Shown: one piece after another, positions 16,787 to 52,411 of the stretch | How positions within the stretch are numbered: position 1 is the first letter of the stretch | How the letters are laid out: each line of letters opens with the position of its first letter | Assembly (NCBI GenBank): GCA_017449765.1 | Contig: JAFTFE010000017.1 | Span: forward strand, 1 to 52,411 | DNA from: Lachnospiraceae bacterium | GTDB lineage: Bacteria; Bacillota; Clostridia; Lachnospirales; Lachnospiraceae | Length of the DNA: 52,411 nt | Direction: 5' to 3' | Translations under genes and position numbers: made by a program | The notes under the pieces: generated by a model | Database searches by the model: none | What the model was told of the DNA's origin: nothing | Seen by the model: the letters and a program-made list of their open reading frames with translations, nothing else

Positions 16787-16799
16787 ATCCAAGAATTAA

Positions 16800-16967
16800 T
16801 GGTAGAGGTGCGATATTTAAGAGTAAGCCATGTGATGACTTAGATCAGATGAAGATGGACGAAAGGAAATGTCGCCGAAGGGGACTTACGTCTAAGCGTC
16901 AGTTTTCCTGGTTGTATAGTTAATAGCTATGCGACTGTCATCGTATGATGGAGCGCTACTGTGAGAT
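16800..16967 (+). promoter_or_regulatory. Lysine riboswitch (L box)
   Basis: The leader has the conserved L-box elements: GGTAGAGGTGCG, AGAGTAAGCC, GGACGAAAGG, CGCCGAAG and the 3' signature GGAGCGCTACTGTG. A terminator follows and dapA is downstream, matching the established role of lysine-bound L boxes in switching off lysine synthesis by early termination. Confidence 0.93.
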
Positions 16968-46233: not shown

Positions 46234-46893
46234 ATGGATATTTTGGAAGCTATTGAAAAGAGACATTCAGTAAGAGTTTATAAGGATGAGCCTATTGCTG
46301 AGGATGTAAAAGAAAAACTTGATGCATTCGTTGAGGAGTGTAGGAAGGAAAGTGGACTTGGTATAAGGATTGCTTATGATTCTCCCGAAATTTTTGGTTC
46401 AGGGATAGCTCATTACGGAAGCTTCAAGAATGCCAATAACGTGATAATTTTATCAGGGAATAAGAATGAGGATATAGATGAGAAGTGCGGATATTATGGC
46501 GAAAAGATAGCATTATATGTTCAGACATTGGGACTTAATACCTGTTGGGCGGCTCTTACGTATAGCAGAGGTAAAGTAAGAAAGATGCTTGATGAGGGAG
46601 AAAAACTCTGTATAGTTATCGCTTTTGGATATGGTGAGACGGATGGTGCAGAGAGAAAGAGTAAGAGTATAGAAGAAGTTGTAGCATCTAAGGGAGAAAT
46701 GCCGGACTGGTTTAAAAAGGGAGTTGAAGCAGCACTTCTTGCTCCGACTGCTGTTAATCAACAGAAGTTTAAGTTTGGAATAAAGGATGGTAAGCCTGTC
46801 GCTGTAGCATCAGGCAGAGGACCTTGTGTTAAGGTTGATTTAGGAATTGCTAAGTACCACTTTGAAGTGGCTTCCGGCAGGAAGGTAGAATAA
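46234..46893 (+). CDS. Nitroreductase-family oxidoreductase
   Basis: 219 aa. FMN-dependent NAD(P)H oxidoreductase; RHSVRVYKDEPI at the N-terminus and LLAPTAVNQQKFKFGI are the FMN-binding landmarks, and the length suits the TM1586-like subgroup. AAAGGAG precedes the ATG. Substrate unknown. It ends before the B12-riboswitch locus. Confidence 0.85.
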   Translation: MDILEAIEKRHSVRVYKDEPIAEDVKEKLDAFVEECRKESGLGIRIAYDSPEIFGSGIAHYGSFKNANNVIILSGNKNEDIDEKCGYYGEKIALYVQTLGLNTCWAALTYSRGKVRKMLDEGEKLCIVIAFGYGETDGAERKSKSIEEVVASKGEMPDWFKKGVEAALLAPTAVNQQKFKFGIKDGKPVAVASGRGPCVKVDLGIAKYHFEVASGRKVE

Positions 46894-47004: not shown

Positions 47005-47270
47005 CGGTAGTCGGTGCCGATAGACTTGGATTATGATTATATCATTATTGCATGTTGGATATTGCGTACGAAAAGTCTTGAAGTTAAAAGGGAAGCAGGT
47101 GTGAATCCCGCACGATCTCGTCACTGTATTAGAGGAGTATAGGGTATGTGCAATAATATGCGTATTCAAACAGCATATTCTTGCAGCCACTGACAGTTGA
47201 TTTGTTGGGAAGGTATATTCTGTATGATGATTCTTAAGCCAGGAAACCTGCCGATTATTTAGGGTACAGG
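47005..47270 (+). promoter_or_regulatory. Cobalamin riboswitch
   Basis: Conserved elements in order: GGTGCC, AAAAGGGAAGCAGGTG, GAATCCCGCACGAT, CGTCACTGT, GCCACTG, GGGAAGG and the B12 box AGCCAGGAAACCTGCC (47237-47252). A GGTAC/GTACC stem follows. It should turn off the downstream uptake genes when adenosyl- or methylcobalamin is plentiful. Confidence 0.95.
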
Positions 47271-47308
47271 GATAAAATCCCGGATTACGAGGCATTAATC
47301 GTACCGTT

Positions 47309-47340
47309 AAAACACGAATTATTTCGGGTTTCTCTTTTAA
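47309..47340 (+). terminator. Weak terminator following the cobalamin riboswitch
   Basis: AAACACGAA / TTCGGGTTT stem (one A-G mismatch), then CTCTTTT. Confidence 0.5.
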
Positions 47341-47452
47341 TGTCTTTTACTTTTATGTAGGAGACTATTTTATTTTAATGAGAAAACAAACGGATATAAG
47401 TGGATTTTATTTTCGTACTGAATTGTATTACATAGAAGGAGGACATTTATTT

Positions 47453-48493
47453 ATGAAAAAGAAACTTTTGGCACTTGCACTTGCCGGCTGTATGGTACTT
47501 GCTACAGGTTGTGGTAAGGATGATACTGACAAGGAGATTACTACAACAAAAGAGGAGACAACAACAGAGGCAGTTACGGAAGAAGTAACTGAGGAAGCAA
47601 CCGAAGAGGCTACGGAGGAAGCTTCTGATGATGCAGAAGAGGAAGATGAGGATTATACTACAGGTGATGCAAGCCTTGATAATCCTTTGAATCAGGATGA
47701 TATAGGTGAATCAGAGCTTTTGGTTGTAAGCTTCGGTACAAGCTTCAATGACAACAGAAGACTTACAATCGGTGCCATCGAGGGTGCACTTGCTGATGCA
47801 TTTCCTGATTACAGCGTTCGCAGAGGCTTTACAAGTCAGATTATAATCGACCATGTAAAGAGTCGTGACGGTGAGGAAATAGATAATGTAGGAGAGGCTC
47901 TTGACAGAGCTGTGGCAAATGGTGTCAAGACACTTGTTGTTCAGCCTACACATCTTATGGATGGTTATGAGTATAACGACCTTGTTGATGAAATCGGCCA
48001 GTATGCGGATGCATTTGAAACAATAAGTATAGGTGAGCCGCTTCTTACTACAGATGAGGATTTTAAGGCTGTTGCAGAGGCTATTGTTGCGGCTACAAGT
48101 GAGTATGACGATGGCAAGACTGCAATCTGTTTTATGGGACATGGAACCGAGGCTGATTCAAACGGCGTATATGCACATATGCAGGAGATTATAGATGAAC
48201 TCGGTTATGAGAATTATTTTATCGGTACTGTTGAAGCAACTCCAAGCCTTGATGACCTTATAGCTGCAGTAGGCGAGGGTGATTACGAAAGAGTAGTTCT
48301 TGAGCCGCTTATGGTTGTTGCCGGTGACCATGCTAACAATGATATGGCCGGTGATGATGAGGATTCATGGAAATCAACCTTTGAAGCAGAGGGATATGAG
48401 GTTGTATGTGTATTAAGAGGTCTTGGTGAGTTTCCTGATATCCGGCAGCTTTATATTAAACATGCTCAGGAGGCTATAGATAAGCTTAATTAA
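47453..48493 (+). CDS. cbiK: Exported lipoprotein cobaltochelatase (CbiK family)
   Basis: 346 aa. Lipobox VLATGC with acylated Cys20 puts it outside the membrane, on a Thr/Glu-rich linker (about 21-85). The CbiK/HemH-like domain (86-346) keeps ELLVVSFGTSFNDNR, CFMGHGTEADSNGVY (catalytic His in GHGT), GTVEATPS and VAGDHANNDMAGDDEDSW (second catalytic His). CbiK inserts Co2+ into sirohydrochlorin. A Desulfovibrio periplasmic CbiK is known; here B12 control and transport neighbours suggest binding or metalating an imported tetrapyrrole. ATG follows AAGGAGG. Confidence 0.88.
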   Translation: MKKKLLALALAGCMVLATGCGKDDTDKEITTTKEETTTEAVTEEVTEEATEEATEEASDDAEEEDEDYTTGDASLDNPLNQDDIGESELLVVSFGTSFNDNRRLTIGAIEGALADAFPDYSVRRGFTSQIIIDHVKSRDGEEIDNVGEALDRAVANGVKTLVVQPTHLMDGYEYNDLVDEIGQYADAFETISIGEPLLTTDEDFKAVAEAIVAATSEYDDGKTAICFMGHGTEADSNGVYAHMQEIIDELGYENYFIGTVEATPSLDDLIAAVGEGDYERVVLEPLMVVAGDHANNDMAGDDEDSWKSTFEAEGYEVVCVLRGLGEFPDIRQLYIKHAQEAIDKLN

Positions 48494-48499
48494 TTTTTA

Positions 48500-48724
48500 T
48501 ACATAACATGTGAGCAAACAGCTAACAGGTGTCTTTGCAACTTACCAACGATTTGTTAAATCAGGGCATATGCCATCTCTATATTAGCACGAAATCGATA
48601 AACTCGCTTCGCTCAGACATATCGATTTCTGAGCTAATATATTCGATGCCATATTGCTGATTTTACACAAATCGGGTAAAATGTTGCAAAGACACCTGTC
48701 GCTGCTCGCTCACATGTTGCATAA
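48500..48724. repeat. 225-bp imperfect palindrome
   Basis: Arms of about 100 bp, 48500-48599 and 48619-48724, with matching blocks ACATGTGAGC/GCTCACATGT, AGGTGTCTTTGCAAC/GTTGCAAAGACACCT, GATTTGT/ACAAATC, ATATTAGC/GCTAATAT and GAAATCGAT/ATCGATTTC. The loop (AAACTCGCTTCGCTCAGAC) is near 48600-48618. It lies between the CbiK lipoprotein and the next lipoprotein and can form a very long hairpin. Confidence 0.9.
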
Positions 48725-48755
48725 GTTAGAAATAATGATAAAAAGGAAAGTTATG

Positions 48756-49739
48756 ATGAAGAAAACATTTGGTAAGATTATAATTGTTTCATATATCATG
48801 GTATTGGGATTGACCGGATGTACTGATAAAAAGAAGGATGATACCACTGCTGTAAGTGAGACGGAAATAGTATCTGAGGATGCGACTGAGGAAGTTACTA
48901 CAGAGGAAGCAGTTGAAGGAGATAAGGAAGCTGATACAGATGAGGCAACGTCTTCGGATTCTTCGGATAAGGTTGCAGATGCTTCTGAGATGACAACTAT
49001 TGATGAGGTTGTAGAAGAGGGTATGGTTCCTGTATATGCTGACCAGGTTAATGATGGTGTATATGATGTTACTGTATCTTCCAGCTCGTCTATGTTTAAG
49101 ATTGTAAGCTGTGAATTAACTGTTGAGGATGGCAAGATGACAGCGACTATGCATATGAGTGGTACAAGCTATCTTTATCTCTATCCGGGAACAGGTATAG
49201 AAGCAGTAGATGCAGATGAAGCTGATTACATCCCGTTTGATGAAGCGGAGGACGGTTCACACAGCTTTGAATTTCCAGTAGAAGCTTTAGATGAGGGTAT
49301 ACCTTGTGCTGCATACAGCAAGAATAAGGAAAAATGGTACGACAGAACCATACTTTTCCGTGTGGATTCACTTCCTATAGATGCCTTTAAAGAAGGTGTA
49401 TTTACAACTGTTGATTCTCTTGGGCTTTCAGATGGAAATTATTCTGTAGAGGTAAGTCTTGCAGGCGGTTCAGGTAAGGCAAGTGTTGATTCACCTGCTG
49501 ACATTAAGGTAGAAAATGGAGAATGTATCGCAACTATCGTATGGAGCAGTCCTAATTATGATTACATGGTTGTAAACGGTGAGAAATATCTGCCTGTTAA
49601 TACAGAGGGTAATTCTGTATTTGAGATACCTGTAACCATATTTGATAAGAACATGAAGGTTATAGCAGATACAACTGCTATGAGTGAGCCTCATGAGATA
49701 GAATATACACTTTATTTTGATTCGATGACAATTAAGTAA
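48756..49739 (+). CDS. Two-repeat lipoprotein of the corrinoid/tetrapyrrole cluster
   Basis: 327 aa. Lipobox VLGLTGC, acidic linker (about 23-85) and two similar beta-sandwich repeats, about 99-215 (DGVYDVTVSSSSSMFKIVSCELTVEDGK...) and about 225-327 (DGNYSVEVSLAGGSGKASVDSPADIKVENGE...). Each has a YDY/YLY...P block and a final Phe-Asp strand. Shape resembles NEAT-like heme or iron-uptake domains, but I cannot assign a ligand. ATG at 48756 is favoured; 48753 is also possible. It follows the long palindrome. Confidence 0.75.
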   Translation: MKKTFGKIIIVSYIMVLGLTGCTDKKKDDTTAVSETEIVSEDATEEVTTEEAVEGDKEADTDEATSSDSSDKVADASEMTTIDEVVEEGMVPVYADQVNDGVYDVTVSSSSSMFKIVSCELTVEDGKMTATMHMSGTSYLYLYPGTGIEAVDADEADYIPFDEAEDGSHSFEFPVEALDEGIPCAAYSKNKEKWYDRTILFRVDSLPIDAFKEGVFTTVDSLGLSDGNYSVEVSLAGGSGKASVDSPADIKVENGECIATIVWSSPNYDYMVVNGEKYLPVNTEGNSVFEIPVTIFDKNMKVIADTTAMSEPHEIEYTLYFDSMTIK

Positions 49740-49861
49740 TTTTAGGATTTTGATTTATCAAATATATAAAAATAAAATTAAATATACATATCATGATGAA
49801 GTGATAGTGATTTGAAATTAAATAATTAATACTAATAGATAACAGTTATAGGATAATAGTA

Positions 49862-51049
49862 ATGATTAATTATAAGAAAAAAAGTATTAATTTAATATTA
49901 TGCATTCTGTTGATTTTTTCGCTTATGTTGACAGGCTGCGGAGCAAATAAAAAAAGTAATAACGAAGTAAGCAGTGACACAGATGCAATTAATGAAGAAG
50001 CCCCTTTGATAGAGGGGCTTCATTTTAAGGAAATTGTTCCGCTTGATTATGCGGAGTGTTTTACTATTTACAGATATGAGGAAGGTTATTCTCTTATCAG
50101 TATAAGTGACGGAAGAAATTATCTACTTGTGCCGGAGGGTAAGGATGTACCTGAGTGTGCTAAGGATTATTATATAATTAAAAAGCCTGTATCTGATATA
50201 TATCTTGCTTCAACCTCAACTATGGCACTCTTTAACGCTATGGATGCGCTTGATATGGTAGGAACCACATCTCTTAATGCTGATGACTGGCATATAGATG
50301 CCGTAAAGGAAGCTATGGAGGAGGAAAGGATTGTCTTTGCAGGTAAGTATTCGGAGCCTGATTATGAGTATCTGATGGATGATGAATGTAAGCTTGCAAT
50401 AGAAAATACAATGATTCTTCATACCCCTGAGGTTCAGGAAAAATTAGAAGAGCTTGGGATTACTGTTTTTATCGACTGCTCAAGCTATGAGGATCATCCT
50501 CTCGGAAGAAGCGAATGGATAAAGGTTTATGCAGAGATAACAGACAGACAGGACGAGGCAGATGCATTTTTTGCAGAGCAGAAAAAATATGTTGAGGAAC
50601 TTTCGGATTATGAAAGCACAGGAAAGACAGTAGCATATTTTTATATAAATGAATCCGGCTCTGTTGTCGTGCGAAAGACCTCTGACTACATACCAAAGAT
50701 GATTGAGATAGCAGGCGGAGATTACATATTTGATGACCTTGGAGCTGATGATGAAAAGGCATCATCAAGTACGAATATTACTATGGAAGAGTTTTACAAT
50801 ACTGCGAAGGATGTAGACTATCTAATATATAACGCCACTATAGATAATCCGCTTCACAGTATAGATGAATTAATTGATAAAAATGCACTTTTTGCAGAAT
50901 TTAAAGCAGTTAAAAATGATAATGTGTGGTGTACGGAAAAGAATATGTTTCAGGCTACGGATGTTATAGGAAATATAATCGGTGATTTCCATACTGTTTT
51001 TACCGATGATGATGCCGAAACTCTTGAATTTCTTTATAGGATACATTAA
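49862..51049 (+). CDS. Class III substrate-binding lipoprotein (BtuF/FepB type)
   Basis: 395 aa. Lipoprotein with LMLTGC near residue 26. Two lobes joined by a long helix: SDIYLASTSTMALFNAMDALDMVGTTS in the N-lobe and AYFYINESGSVVVRKTSDYIPKMIEIAGGDYIFDDLG in the C-lobe, typical of vitamin B12, heme and siderophore binders. B12-riboswitch control favours corrinoid or a related tetrapyrrole. The permease gene is 237 bp downstream, after the second palindrome. Confidence 0.9.
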   Translation: MINYKKKSINLILCILLIFSLMLTGCGANKKSNNEVSSDTDAINEEAPLIEGLHFKEIVPLDYAECFTIYRYEEGYSLISISDGRNYLLVPEGKDVPECAKDYYIIKKPVSDIYLASTSTMALFNAMDALDMVGTTSLNADDWHIDAVKEAMEEERIVFAGKYSEPDYEYLMDDECKLAIENTMILHTPEVQEKLEELGITVFIDCSSYEDHPLGRSEWIKVYAEITDRQDEADAFFAEQKKYVEELSDYESTGKTVAYFYINESGSVVVRKTSDYIPKMIEIAGGDYIFDDLGADDEKASSSTNITMEEFYNTAKDVDYLIYNATIDNPLHSIDELIDKNALFAEFKAVKNDNVWCTEKNMFQATDVIGNIIGDFHTVFTDDDAETLEFLYRIH

Positions 51050-51080
51050 ATGTGTTTTGATTAATCGAGAGTGTTTTGAC

Positions 51081-51221
51081 AAATTGAGTGTGTAGACAAG
51101 TTTCAACGCAAACACGCTCTCGCTCGATTTTTTACGTAGCGGTACTAAGCTCGAAAATACCTCGCTAAGTACCGACGTAAAAAAGACGGTTTGCTTATGA
51201 AACTGTCTACACACTCAATTT
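51081..51221. repeat. 140-bp imperfect palindrome
   Basis: Outer arms AAATTGAGTGTGTAGACA / TGTCTACACACTCAATTT, then GTTTC/GAAAC, GCAAAC/GTTTGC, TTTTTTACGT/ACGTAAAAAA and CGGTACT/AGTACCG, with a loop near 51150-51160. Perfect over most of each arm. Placed like the 225-bp palindrome but different in sequence. Its last bases run into the -35 of the next promoter. Confidence 0.92.
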
Positions 51222-51248
51222 GATTTACACAGTGAAAAGAGATATAAT
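51220..51248 (+). promoter_or_regulatory. Possible promoter of the permease gene
   Basis: TTGATT (51220-51225), 17 nt, TATAAT (51243-51248), directly after the second palindrome. This would let the permease and ATPase genes be expressed separately from the riboswitch transcript. Confidence 0.55.
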
Positions 51249-51286
51249 TATTTTTGATATGTACTATTTATTTGAGGATATGAAGT

Positions 51287-52339
51287 ATGGTAAAAAAAGA
51301 TAATTCGATTAATTTTGAAAAACATAGTACGAATAGTAAAATTAGATATTCTTTTTTCTTTGTTTTTATGTTTATTCTCTTTATAATTATTACTATTTTG
51401 AATATTAATATCGGTTCGGTTGATATTTCAGTACCGGATATTTTTAAGATTATTTTTTTGAGAGAGGGAGAAAAGGGTTATTATAATATTATCTGGCATA
51501 TCAGACTTCCGAGGATTTGCATGGCTGCGATTTTAGGAGGAGCACTTTCTTTGTCCGGACTTTTGCTTCAAATATTTTTCAATAATCCTATCGCAGGCCC
51601 TTATATACTTGGTATTTCTTCAGGTGCTAAGATGGTGGTTGCGCTTACTCTTGTTTTCTTTCTTGAGAGATTCGGAAGAGTTTCATCCATTTCTCTTGTA
51701 ATTGCGGCATTTGCCGGTTCTATGCTCTCGATAGCATTTATTCTTGTTTTATCCAGATACATTAAGTCTATGTCGGTTCTTATAATCGGCGGTATAATGA
51801 TTAATTATATCTGCTCTGCTATTACGGATTTTATCATAACCTTTGCAAGCGATTCGGATATTATAAATCTTCACGGCTGGTCACTCGGAAGCTTTTCGGC
51901 TTCTAATTGGCGGGATGTTTTTATAGCATTTGTTATAGTAACGATTACATCGATTATTATATTTATACTTGCAAAGCCGATAAGTGCATTTTTGCTCGGA
52001 GAAGCTTATGCAAAAAGTGTAGGTGTAAATATAAGGGTATTCAGGGTTGTGCTTATTCTTTTGTCGAGCGTTCTTTCAGCATGTGTGACAGCTTTTGCAG
52101 GCCCTATATCCTTTGTCGGTATTGCGGTGCCTCATCTTATAAAGAGAGGGCTTCGTACTTCCAAGCCGATAATTGTTATACCGGCTTGCTTTATAGGTGG
52201 AAGTATATTCTGCATGGTATGTGACCTTATAGCGAGGACTGCATTTTCACCGACAGAGCTTAATATAAGCACGGTTACGGCGGTATTTGGTGCACCGATA
52301 GTTATTGCGATGCTGATTAAGGGCAGCAAGAGGGAGTAG
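51287..52339 (+). CDS. FecCD-family ABC transporter permease (BtuC-like)
   Basis: 350 aa, about ten membrane helices. HIRLPRICMAAILGGALSLSGLLLQIFFNNPIAGPYILGISSGA is the FecCD signature and GPISFVGIAVPHLIKRGL the ATPase-contact region. Probably imports what the class III binding protein captures. Its start codon has a weaker site (GAGGATATGAAG). The ATPase starts 3 nt after its stop. Confidence 0.94.
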   Translation: MVKKDNSINFEKHSTNSKIRYSFFFVFMFILFIIITILNINIGSVDISVPDIFKIIFLREGEKGYYNIIWHIRLPRICMAAILGGALSLSGLLLQIFFNNPIAGPYILGISSGAKMVVALTLVFFLERFGRVSSISLVIAAFAGSMLSIAFILVLSRYIKSMSVLIIGGIMINYICSAITDFIITFASDSDIINLHGWSLGSFSASNWRDVFIAFVIVTITSIIIFILAKPISAFLLGEAYAKSVGVNIRVFRVVLILLSSVLSACVTAFAGPISFVGIAVPHLIKRGLRTSKPIIVIPACFIGGSIFCMVCDLIARTAFSPTELNISTVTAVFGAPIVIAMLIKGSKRE

Positions 52340-52342
52340 AAA

Positions 52343-52411
52343 ATGGATTATTATTTAAAGACATCGAAGCTTTCAGTCGGATATAACGGCAAGCCGATTG
52401 TAAAGGATATA
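52343..52411 (+). CDS. ABC transporter ATP-binding protein (FecE/BtuD type), partial
   Basis: Only 23 residues (MDYYLKTSKLSVGYNGKPIVKDI) before the window ends. The SVGYNGKPIVKDI beginning is typical of iron-complex/B12 ABC ATPases, and position after the permease fits. Confidence 0.8.
   Translation, partial: MDYYLKTSKLSVGYNGKPIVKDI

Follow-up and report, generated by a model that had tools for sequence, protein, structure and literature searches.

A cobalamin-riboswitch cluster around an exported CbiK-type chelatase suggests that vitamin B12 synthesis in many clostridia may start outside the cell

We analyzed a 52,411-nucleotide stretch of DNA from a Lachnospiraceae bacterium (assembly GCA_017449765.1, contig JAFTFE010000017.1; hereafter "the window"), in which a cobalamin riboswitch precedes genes for an exported CbiK-type class II chelatase, a NEAT-like lipoprotein, and a BtuFCD-type importer. 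The best explanation for this cluster, to which we assign a probability of roughly 0.6, is that a scavenged ring of the sirohydrochlorin type receives its cobalt outside the cell and is then imported to feed CbiL. What we observed directly comprises gene order, the riboswitch, export signals, active-site residues, gene fusions, and co-occurrence across genomes. In its broader form, the proposal is that B12 synthesis in probably hundreds of clostridial species starts outside, where a tethered chelatase would load cobalt into scavenged sirohydrochlorin and a NEAT-like/BtuFCD relay would import Co-sirohydrochlorin; we regard this wider statement as an even bet.

Results

All features of the cluster, from position 47040 onward, lie on the + strand. 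The first is a cobalamin riboswitch aptamer (47040..47269, +; RF00174, 67 bits against a gathering cut-off of 31.5, full model 1-189), the sole cobalamin riboswitch detected in the genome. It is followed by the gene for the chelatase (47453..48493, +; PF06180, E 2.5e-81), which has a signal peptide with an LATGC lipobox, an acidic Glu/Thr-rich linker, and a CbiK domain from about residue 89. For this gene we prefer the start at 47453 (MKKKLL...) over the longer open reading frame (ORF) start at 47378, and an AGGAGG lies upstream of the former. Then come a two-repeat NEAT-like lipoprotein, a probable tetrapyrrole carrier (48756..49739, +), a class III substrate-binding lipoprotein of the BtuF/IsdE-like kind (49862..51049, +; PF01497, E 3.9e-37), and a BtuC/FecCD-type ATP-binding cassette (ABC) permease (51287..52339, +; PF01032, E 1.2e-76). 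Both of the latter pass their Pfam cut-offs, so that the permease and binding protein of a BtuCDF-type importer are present. The final feature is the start of a BtuD-type ATPase (52343..52411, +; frame MDYYLKTSKLSVGYNGKPIVKDI, read by eye), of which only the first 23 codons are present because the window is a whole contig and ends there; ATPase-like ORFs, also named by eye, occupy the same place in two related loci (L210 and L204). The original prediction, made from the sequence alone, had listed the riboswitch, lipobox CbiK, two-repeat lipoprotein, class III binding protein, FecCD permease, and ATPase start, and the Rfam and Pfam matches, with the ATPase read by eye, bear this list out. Between the riboswitch and the chelatase gene, the segment 47265-47380 (+) folds better than its shuffles (z -2.93) and holds a hairpin and then a T-rich run, a possible terminator.

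The window chelatase passes PF06180 with 273 bits (cut-off 26.2). On the NCBIfam SiroCoChCbiK equivalog model NF047852 it scores 227 bits against a cut-off of 400, and is therefore not an equivalog by the NCBIfam rule, although still a CbiK-family class II chelatase. The nearest solved structures in a single-sequence phmmer search are FetB (9b86), CbiK (1qgo), and 2xvx, which we take to be the periplasmic CbiK of Desulfovibrio vulgaris; a profile search ranks CbiK 1qgo first among solved chains and FetB second. His230, Glu261, and His293 of the window protein align with His145, Glu175, and His207 of CbiK, where Glu175 is a catalytic residue. CbiK His145 and His207 are named as catalytic in the available excerpts of PMC7689651. 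The metal-ligand His/Glu/His set plus His167 is invariant in all 29 aligned proteins (23 exported, 6 not). Loss of the catalytic His or Glu, a possibility raised with the original prediction, was thus looked for by alignment and none was seen; as judged from these residues, the window chelatase looks active.

The two-repeat lipoprotein stays below the PF05031 (NEAT) gathering cut-off (27.7 against 32.8 bits). A NEAT match at E ≤ 0.01 was obtained for 17 of 20 aligned members of its family, and the family profile reaches the NEAT chain 4h8q only at E 0.014. An AlphaFold2 model is beta-rich with two repeats (mean predicted local distance difference test score, pLDDT, 82.6; confident beyond the first 70 residues). 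Heme-binding NEAT domains carry a YxxxY motif, and at this site repeat 2 has a conserved HEIxY, which, as a conjecture, perhaps supplies a histidine ligand suited to cobalt. A profile of the binding protein built from 24 homologues weakly reaches four solved chains, with Lmo2184 (5joq, E 7.5e-9) first, IsdE (2q8p, E 5e-4) and two others; BtuF is not among the four. IsdE binds heme, and a profile that reaches Lmo2184 and IsdE and no BtuF suits a planar ring. Five residues of the binding protein (Cys176, Met184, His187, Arg216, and Trp219) are invariant in the 24 aligned sequences and are candidate ligand contacts. The best NCBIfam match of the permease is the BtuC model NF003001 (202 bits, under the equivalog cut-off of 334).

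We then examined how often this arrangement recurs, in 299 genomes of the same family as the window's, sampled at nearly one per genus. Forty CbiK loci were fetched from this set, and CbiK is exported in 34. By Rfam match, 31 of these 34 loci have a cobalamin riboswitch ahead of the chelatase gene; no other evidence was counted, as an ad hoc regular expression overlooked many Rfam sites. The three loci without a match (L053, L058, L059) are all at contig ends, and in L072 another reading frame stands between riboswitch and CbiK. Of the six loci in which no export signal was recognised on CbiK, one has a riboswitch. NEAT-like, BtuF-like, and BtuC-like matches are all present in 27 of the 34 exported loci; lipobox-CbiK near BtuFCD under a B12 riboswitch, which the original prediction proposed seeking in other genomes, does recur. 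The lipobox pattern fits 86 of 99 exported CbiK frames; the remaining 13, of which two are cut at a contig edge, were assigned by eye. One locus has two tandem exported CbiK genes, each with its own riboswitch (L066, 14808-18412), and another has a NiCo riboswitch about 2 kb past the permease gene (L037, 15521-15605, -).

The NEAT-like partner is found well beyond this family survey. A NEAT-like profile search of titled one-genome-per-species records yielded at least 586 stretches encoding a relative. In 79 of the best 80 of these loci the stretch also encodes CbiK, either immediately upstream or as a fusion, from which we conclude that the cluster is not a chance association; 75 of the 79 have a loose signal-peptide pattern in front of CbiK. 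The same best 80 include BtuF in 69, BtuC in 66, and at least one corrin-ring gene in 30. All nine loci selected from titled records, mostly of named strains, have the riboswitch, and the strains include Agathobaculum desmolans, Evtepia gabavorous, and [Clostridium] clostridioforme. One of the nine, L210 from Lachnospiraceae bacterium XBD2001 (the same locus as L042), reads CbiK, NEAT-like, BtuF, BtuC, ATPase-like frame, CbiD, CbiF, CbiG, CbiH, CbiJ-E-T. In L204 the first + strand gene beyond the ATPase-like frame encodes a CbiL relative (33% identity).

Gene fusions tie the parts together further. A NEAT-like domain is joined to a BtuF-like one in a single protein in L038, L052, L054, and L073-L075, and a NEAT-like domain scoring >40 bits is found inside 15 of the 99 exported CbiK reading frames, either behind CbiK or in front of it (L091 and, by eye, L086). 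The exported-CbiK tree shows 18 changes in the long-frame state (>480 amino acids; 26 rows), which we took to indicate fusion. From such patterns we read the parts of the cluster as belonging to one machine.

The distribution of exported CbiK follows that of corrin-ring synthesis. CbiK and CbiD each occur in 171 of the 299 genomes, and 161 have both. CbiD is present in 96 of the 98 genomes with exported CbiK compared with 75 of the 201 others, and exported CbiK occurs in only 2 of 128 CbiD-negative genomes. The system is therefore tied to corrin-ring synthesis and not to B12 salvage. Where both positions are listed for genomes with exported CbiK only, CbiD lies within 30 kb of CbiK in 29 of 53, and 28 of these have it downstream in the same orientation. 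Ring enzymes encoded in the window's genome are CbiL, CbiC, CbiD, CbiF, CbiG, CbiH, a CbiJ-E-T fusion, and CbiA; for nucleotide loop assembly, a CobD-like ORF was seen. Elsewhere in this genome, a CobW/P47K-like GTPase, possibly a cobalt chaperone, stands before the corrin operon (L004, 1596-2615; 54 bits against a cut-off of 180).

The 171 CbiD-positive genomes divide into 62 with exported CbiK only, 65 with cytosolic CbiK only, 34 with both, and 10 with no CbiK. The idea that exported CbiK is a mere spare copy fits the 34, but 62 genomes have only the exported one. HemC, CobA, and CbiM were tallied across all 299 genomes, and HemB and SirC across 80 (the 62 exported-only genomes and 18 of the 65 cytosolic-only ones as controls). 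In the exported-only genomes, HemC occurs in 15, CobA in 18, neither in 44, and short-frame CbiM in none. The corresponding counts of HemC, CobA, and short-frame CbiM are 62, 62, and 42 in the 65 cytosolic-only genomes, 34, 34, and 8 in the 34 with both kinds, and one each in the 10 without CbiK. HemB was found in 9 of the 62 exported-only genomes vs. 14 of the 18 controls, and SirC in 19 of 62 and 18 of 18, counted only at ≥75 bits because weak matches occur in all 80 genomes. All four precursor enzymes (HemC, CobA, HemB, and SirC) are missing in 43 of the 62 exported-only genomes, and in 28 of the 41 that are ≥95% complete.

The window's genome and that of a congener (G180) are both among these 43. 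Searches of the window's genome gave no match for HemC, HemB, or CbiM, none over cut-off for CobA, and none at ≥75 bits for SirC; the best CobA match is below cut-off, and the genome's CbiF scores E 2.9e-47 on the CobA model. The exported CbiK is its one PF06180 protein. A concealed CbiX as the true chelatase was set aside for this genome, since a PF01903 search matched only CbiK itself and found no CbiX besides. The genome thus shows the pattern of a salvager, with the corrin-ring pathway present and the searched early steps absent (HemA, HemL, and HemD were not searched). By the same searches, the congener (100% complete, 0% contaminated) has no HemC, HemB, CobA, SirC, or CbiM; it has CbiD, and an exported CbiK is its only PF06180 protein. 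A similar combination was seen in a control genome, Bacteroides ihuae, with matches for CbiK, CbiD, and a cobalamin riboswitch and none for HemC or HemB; the same pattern may exist in Bacteroidota.

The CbiM counts depend on a rule of our own, by which PF01891 proteins of ≤330 amino acids are taken as cobalt-type CbiM and longer ones as nickel-type. In support of the split, CbiD is missing in 1 of 52 short-frame genomes vs. 28 of 62 long-frame genomes; without it, PF01891 is present in 17 of 62 exported-only vs. 48 of 65 cytosolic-only genomes. Export status was read from the N-termini in fetched loci, and two groups were counted as cytosolic without such a reading, namely the matches of 63 genomes without a listed place and 29 listed places with 42-47% identity. 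The window's genome is among the 63 only because its row was left out. Unlisted CbiK matches score below the listed ones, as cytosolic CbiKs do, and any unread exported CbiK among them would shift the class of its genome. On the CbiK tree, exported CbiK forms a single clade (1 change). A paired test of exported vs. other CbiK and HemC on this tree offers just one pair and is uninformative. Within the exported clade, HemC status changes 23 to 24 times (shuffled mean 33, minimum 26); the HemC association is thus clustered, but not that of one clade.

Two other features of the window were noted. A TM1586-type nitroreductase gene (46234-46893, +) directly precedes the riboswitch and has no known link to the cluster, and a lysine riboswitch (109.7 bits) is located at 16795-16966 (+).

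Discussion

We propose that vitamin B12 synthesis begins with this cluster in a cell unable to make the ring precursor. Under B12 shortage, the riboswitch would permit expression of the cluster. CbiK, tethered outside the membrane, would load Co(II) into a ring of the sirohydrochlorin type, scavenged metal-free or first stripped of another metal, and the NEAT-like lipoprotein would capture or relay the Co-loaded product. The binding protein would hand this product to BtuCD, and the imported Co-sirohydrochlorin would serve as substrate for CbiL, the earliest pathway enzyme that the cell has in its cytosol. The ring might come from neighbours as sirohydrochlorin or from siroheme stripped of its iron. 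We infer here that the chelatase is active, which substrate it uses, in which direction the ring is passed on, and where the ring comes from. Because the searched pre-chelatase enzymes are missing and CbiL to CbiA are present, the simplest reading is that Co-sirohydrochlorin crosses the membrane; the entry point would be just before CbiL, with sirohydrochlorin the likely substrate and Co-sirohydrochlorin the likely product. Joint entry of ring and cobalt would explain both the missing precursor enzymes in most exported-only genomes and the complete lack of short-frame CbiM among the 62. The original prediction had suggested capture of tetrapyrroles outside the cell, metalation there, and BtuF-like uptake. 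The comparative evidence favours this scheme over the rival readings and narrows it to a putative sirohydrochlorin-type entry before CbiL; the trimming of tetrapyrroles outside, which the prediction also allowed for, drew no support from it.

In two loci (L015 and L032), a cytosolic CbiK follows an ABC ATPase-like stretch in one reading frame, by eye a CbiO-CbiK fusion. We regard this fusion as a cytosolic analogue, in which the uptake of cobalt would likewise be coupled to its insertion.

Alternatively, the cluster could be an importer of cobamides or cobinamide in which exported CbiK only binds or passes corrinoids and inserts no metal. Riboswitch control and the BtuC-like permease would be expected of such an importer, and BtuFCD homologues in gut genomes are taken as B12 uptake in the accessible part of Rodionov 2019 (PMC6593275). 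However, exported CbiK is nearly absent from the 128 CbiD-negative genomes, where import would matter most, the catalytic residues are invariant, and none of the four solved chains reached by the binding-protein profile is a BtuF. We thus consider this importer unlikely, and we did not adopt plain B12 uptake as the main reading, given that nearly all genomes with exported CbiK are CbiD-positive.

Acquisition of iron from heme or siroheme is a further candidate, in which exported CbiK strips iron from metalloporphyrins, as proposed for IhtB of Porphyromonas gingivalis, which we take to be the same protein as FetB. FetB 9b86 is indeed the nearest solved structure by single-sequence search, and a NEAT-like carrier next to an IsdE-like binding protein would suit heme. 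IhtB is thought to remove iron from heme, according to excerpts of PMC10913741. The profile search places CbiK 1qgo nearest and FetB second, however. The cluster is also governed by a B12 riboswitch and closely linked to CbiD, CbiL, and further genes of the corrin pathway, so that a role in iron acquisition is improbable.

Siroheme-bearing cells are common and free sirohydrochlorin in the gut is unproven, which would favour transmetalation, a variant of our preferred explanation with respect to substrate. Here exported CbiK would swap the Fe of siroheme, or Ni, for Co in rings from dead cells. To our knowledge, class II chelatases do not remove tightly held metals efficiently, and our analysis yielded no direct evidence of such exchange. 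A review, in the portion available, has FetB exchanging porphyrin metals and places a question mark on FetB as an iron remover (PMC13402209). We give transmetalation a low probability. Lastly, the signal could be unprocessed and the protein an ordinary cytosolic pathway chelatase, in keeping with the less usual Ala at -3 of the window's lipobox and with an exported-type CbiK being the genome's only one, yet this is very improbable given the lipobox fits in most exported frames, the NEAT-like fusions and binding lipoproteins of the operon that place CbiK outside, and the ring precursors missing from the cytosol in most such genomes.

Several observations weigh against cobalt insertion outside the cell followed by import. 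Seven of the 34 exported loci (L043, L055, L060, L061, L066, L067, and L072) have no BtuF and/or BtuC match in the fetched stretch, and that of the congener G180 is among the seven. The window is an entire contig of a 3.4 Mb draft genome in 191 contigs (100% complete, 5.29% contaminated), and this fragmentation and contamination are a weakness. HemC and/or CobA are present in 18 of the 62 exported-only genomes, including the genome of L210 (G049), and these could make sirohydrochlorin inside. The 34 genomes with both exported and other CbiK are all HemC-positive. Three genomes with cytosolic CbiK (G062, G149, and G186) have neither HemC nor CobA, as do 9 of the 10 CbiD-positive genomes without CbiK, so that the latter must either use a different route or have genes missing. 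HemB is a soft marker, because 4 of the 18 HemC-positive controls also have none, and 13 exported-only genomes have a long-frame PF01891 protein, which we read as nickel-type. The co-occurrence counts are uncorrected for kinship on a species tree, and a paired test on the CbiK tree within the exported clade, relating HemC to the presence or absence of a further CbiK, gave only 6 supported pairs, about 4 concordant and none discordant, with a median p of 0.125, which is too few for a decision.

Components of the proposed route resemble known systems. Salmonella CbiK (1qgo, 2xwp), the sirohydrochlorin cobaltochelatase, is of the same Pfam family and shares the catalytic His145/Glu175/His207; it is cytosolic and supplied by a complete precursor pathway, whereas the window's protein has a signal peptide and falls short of the equivalog cut-off (227 vs. 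400). The periplasmic CbiK of Desulfovibrio vulgaris is exported, like the window's, and others have reportedly suggested a link to heme transport. The window's family is Gram-positive, unlike Desulfovibrio. In the available text of PMC545781, one B12-element controls cbiK-cbiL and btuCDF in Desulfovibrio, which cbiK is exported is not specified, and no known cobalt transporter was found in cbiK-bearing delta-proteobacteria, for which cbtX was predicted as a new one. The same excerpts mention no NEAT-like lipoprotein, in contrast to the window cluster, which has one.

The Iht system of P. gingivalis (IhtA-E) joins a CbiK-like lipoprotein to an ABC importer, and the part of PMC10913741 consulted presents it as a route for heme/iron uptake. 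It is like the window cluster in combining an exported CbiK-like lipoprotein with a binding protein, permease, and ATPase, and unlike it in having a TonB receptor and an assigned heme/iron role; no B12 role is proposed in those excerpts. P. gingivalis is said there to be without the steps to precorrin-2 (PMC10913741, PMC6461909), and its FetB (9b86) is reported to make manganese porphyrin in the portion of the review cited above (PMC13402209). Isd-type NEAT heme uptake likewise places a NEAT-repeat lipoprotein beside an IsdE-like binding protein and a FecCD permease; the window cluster differs in its B12 riboswitch, its linkage to corrin genes, and HEIxY in place of YxxxY in repeat 2. Tetrapyrrole-precursor salvagers, mostly Firmicutes, were predicted by Shelton et al. 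(2018), whose available text lists a precorrin-2 class and tests dependence on 5-aminolevulinic acid (PMC6461909). Precorrin-2 salvagers are put at 0.6% in an excerpt of a review (PMC8123684). Such salvagers share the window genome's pattern of a corrin pathway without early steps, but are a phenotype category, for which the excerpts mention neither a transporter nor an exported chelatase (PMC6461909).

The open-access literature searched held no description of a Gram-positive system of this form and no proposal of extracellular cobalt insertion for B12 synthesis. The original claim that no such Gram-positive system had been described stands to this extent, with the qualification that Iht and the Desulfovibrio B12-element cluster are comparable. 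Exported CbiKs and predicted precorrin-2 salvagers were already known, and the combined mechanism would be new if shown.

If the proposal is true, one reaction of an otherwise intracellular cofactor pathway occurs beyond the membrane, and what gut bacteria share includes a ring intermediate in addition to B12. A metallated tetrapyrrole would then be a shared good of gut and rumen and would provide these cells with their cobalt route for B12. By this reasoning, Iht and the Desulfovibrio cluster, too, may be systems that take up Co-tetrapyrroles. The gene list for B12 prototrophy begins at CbiK/CbiX in a table of Rodionov et al., as far as the available part goes (PMC6593275), and genomes scored as prototrophs from such a list may need the ring of their neighbours. 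The exported chelatase, found in 98 of the 299 family genomes, and the at least 586 NEAT-like stretches, some of them in cultured strains, offer a concrete candidate system for relatives in gut and rumen that keep their B12-building genes and in many of which the ring-precursor genes are missing.

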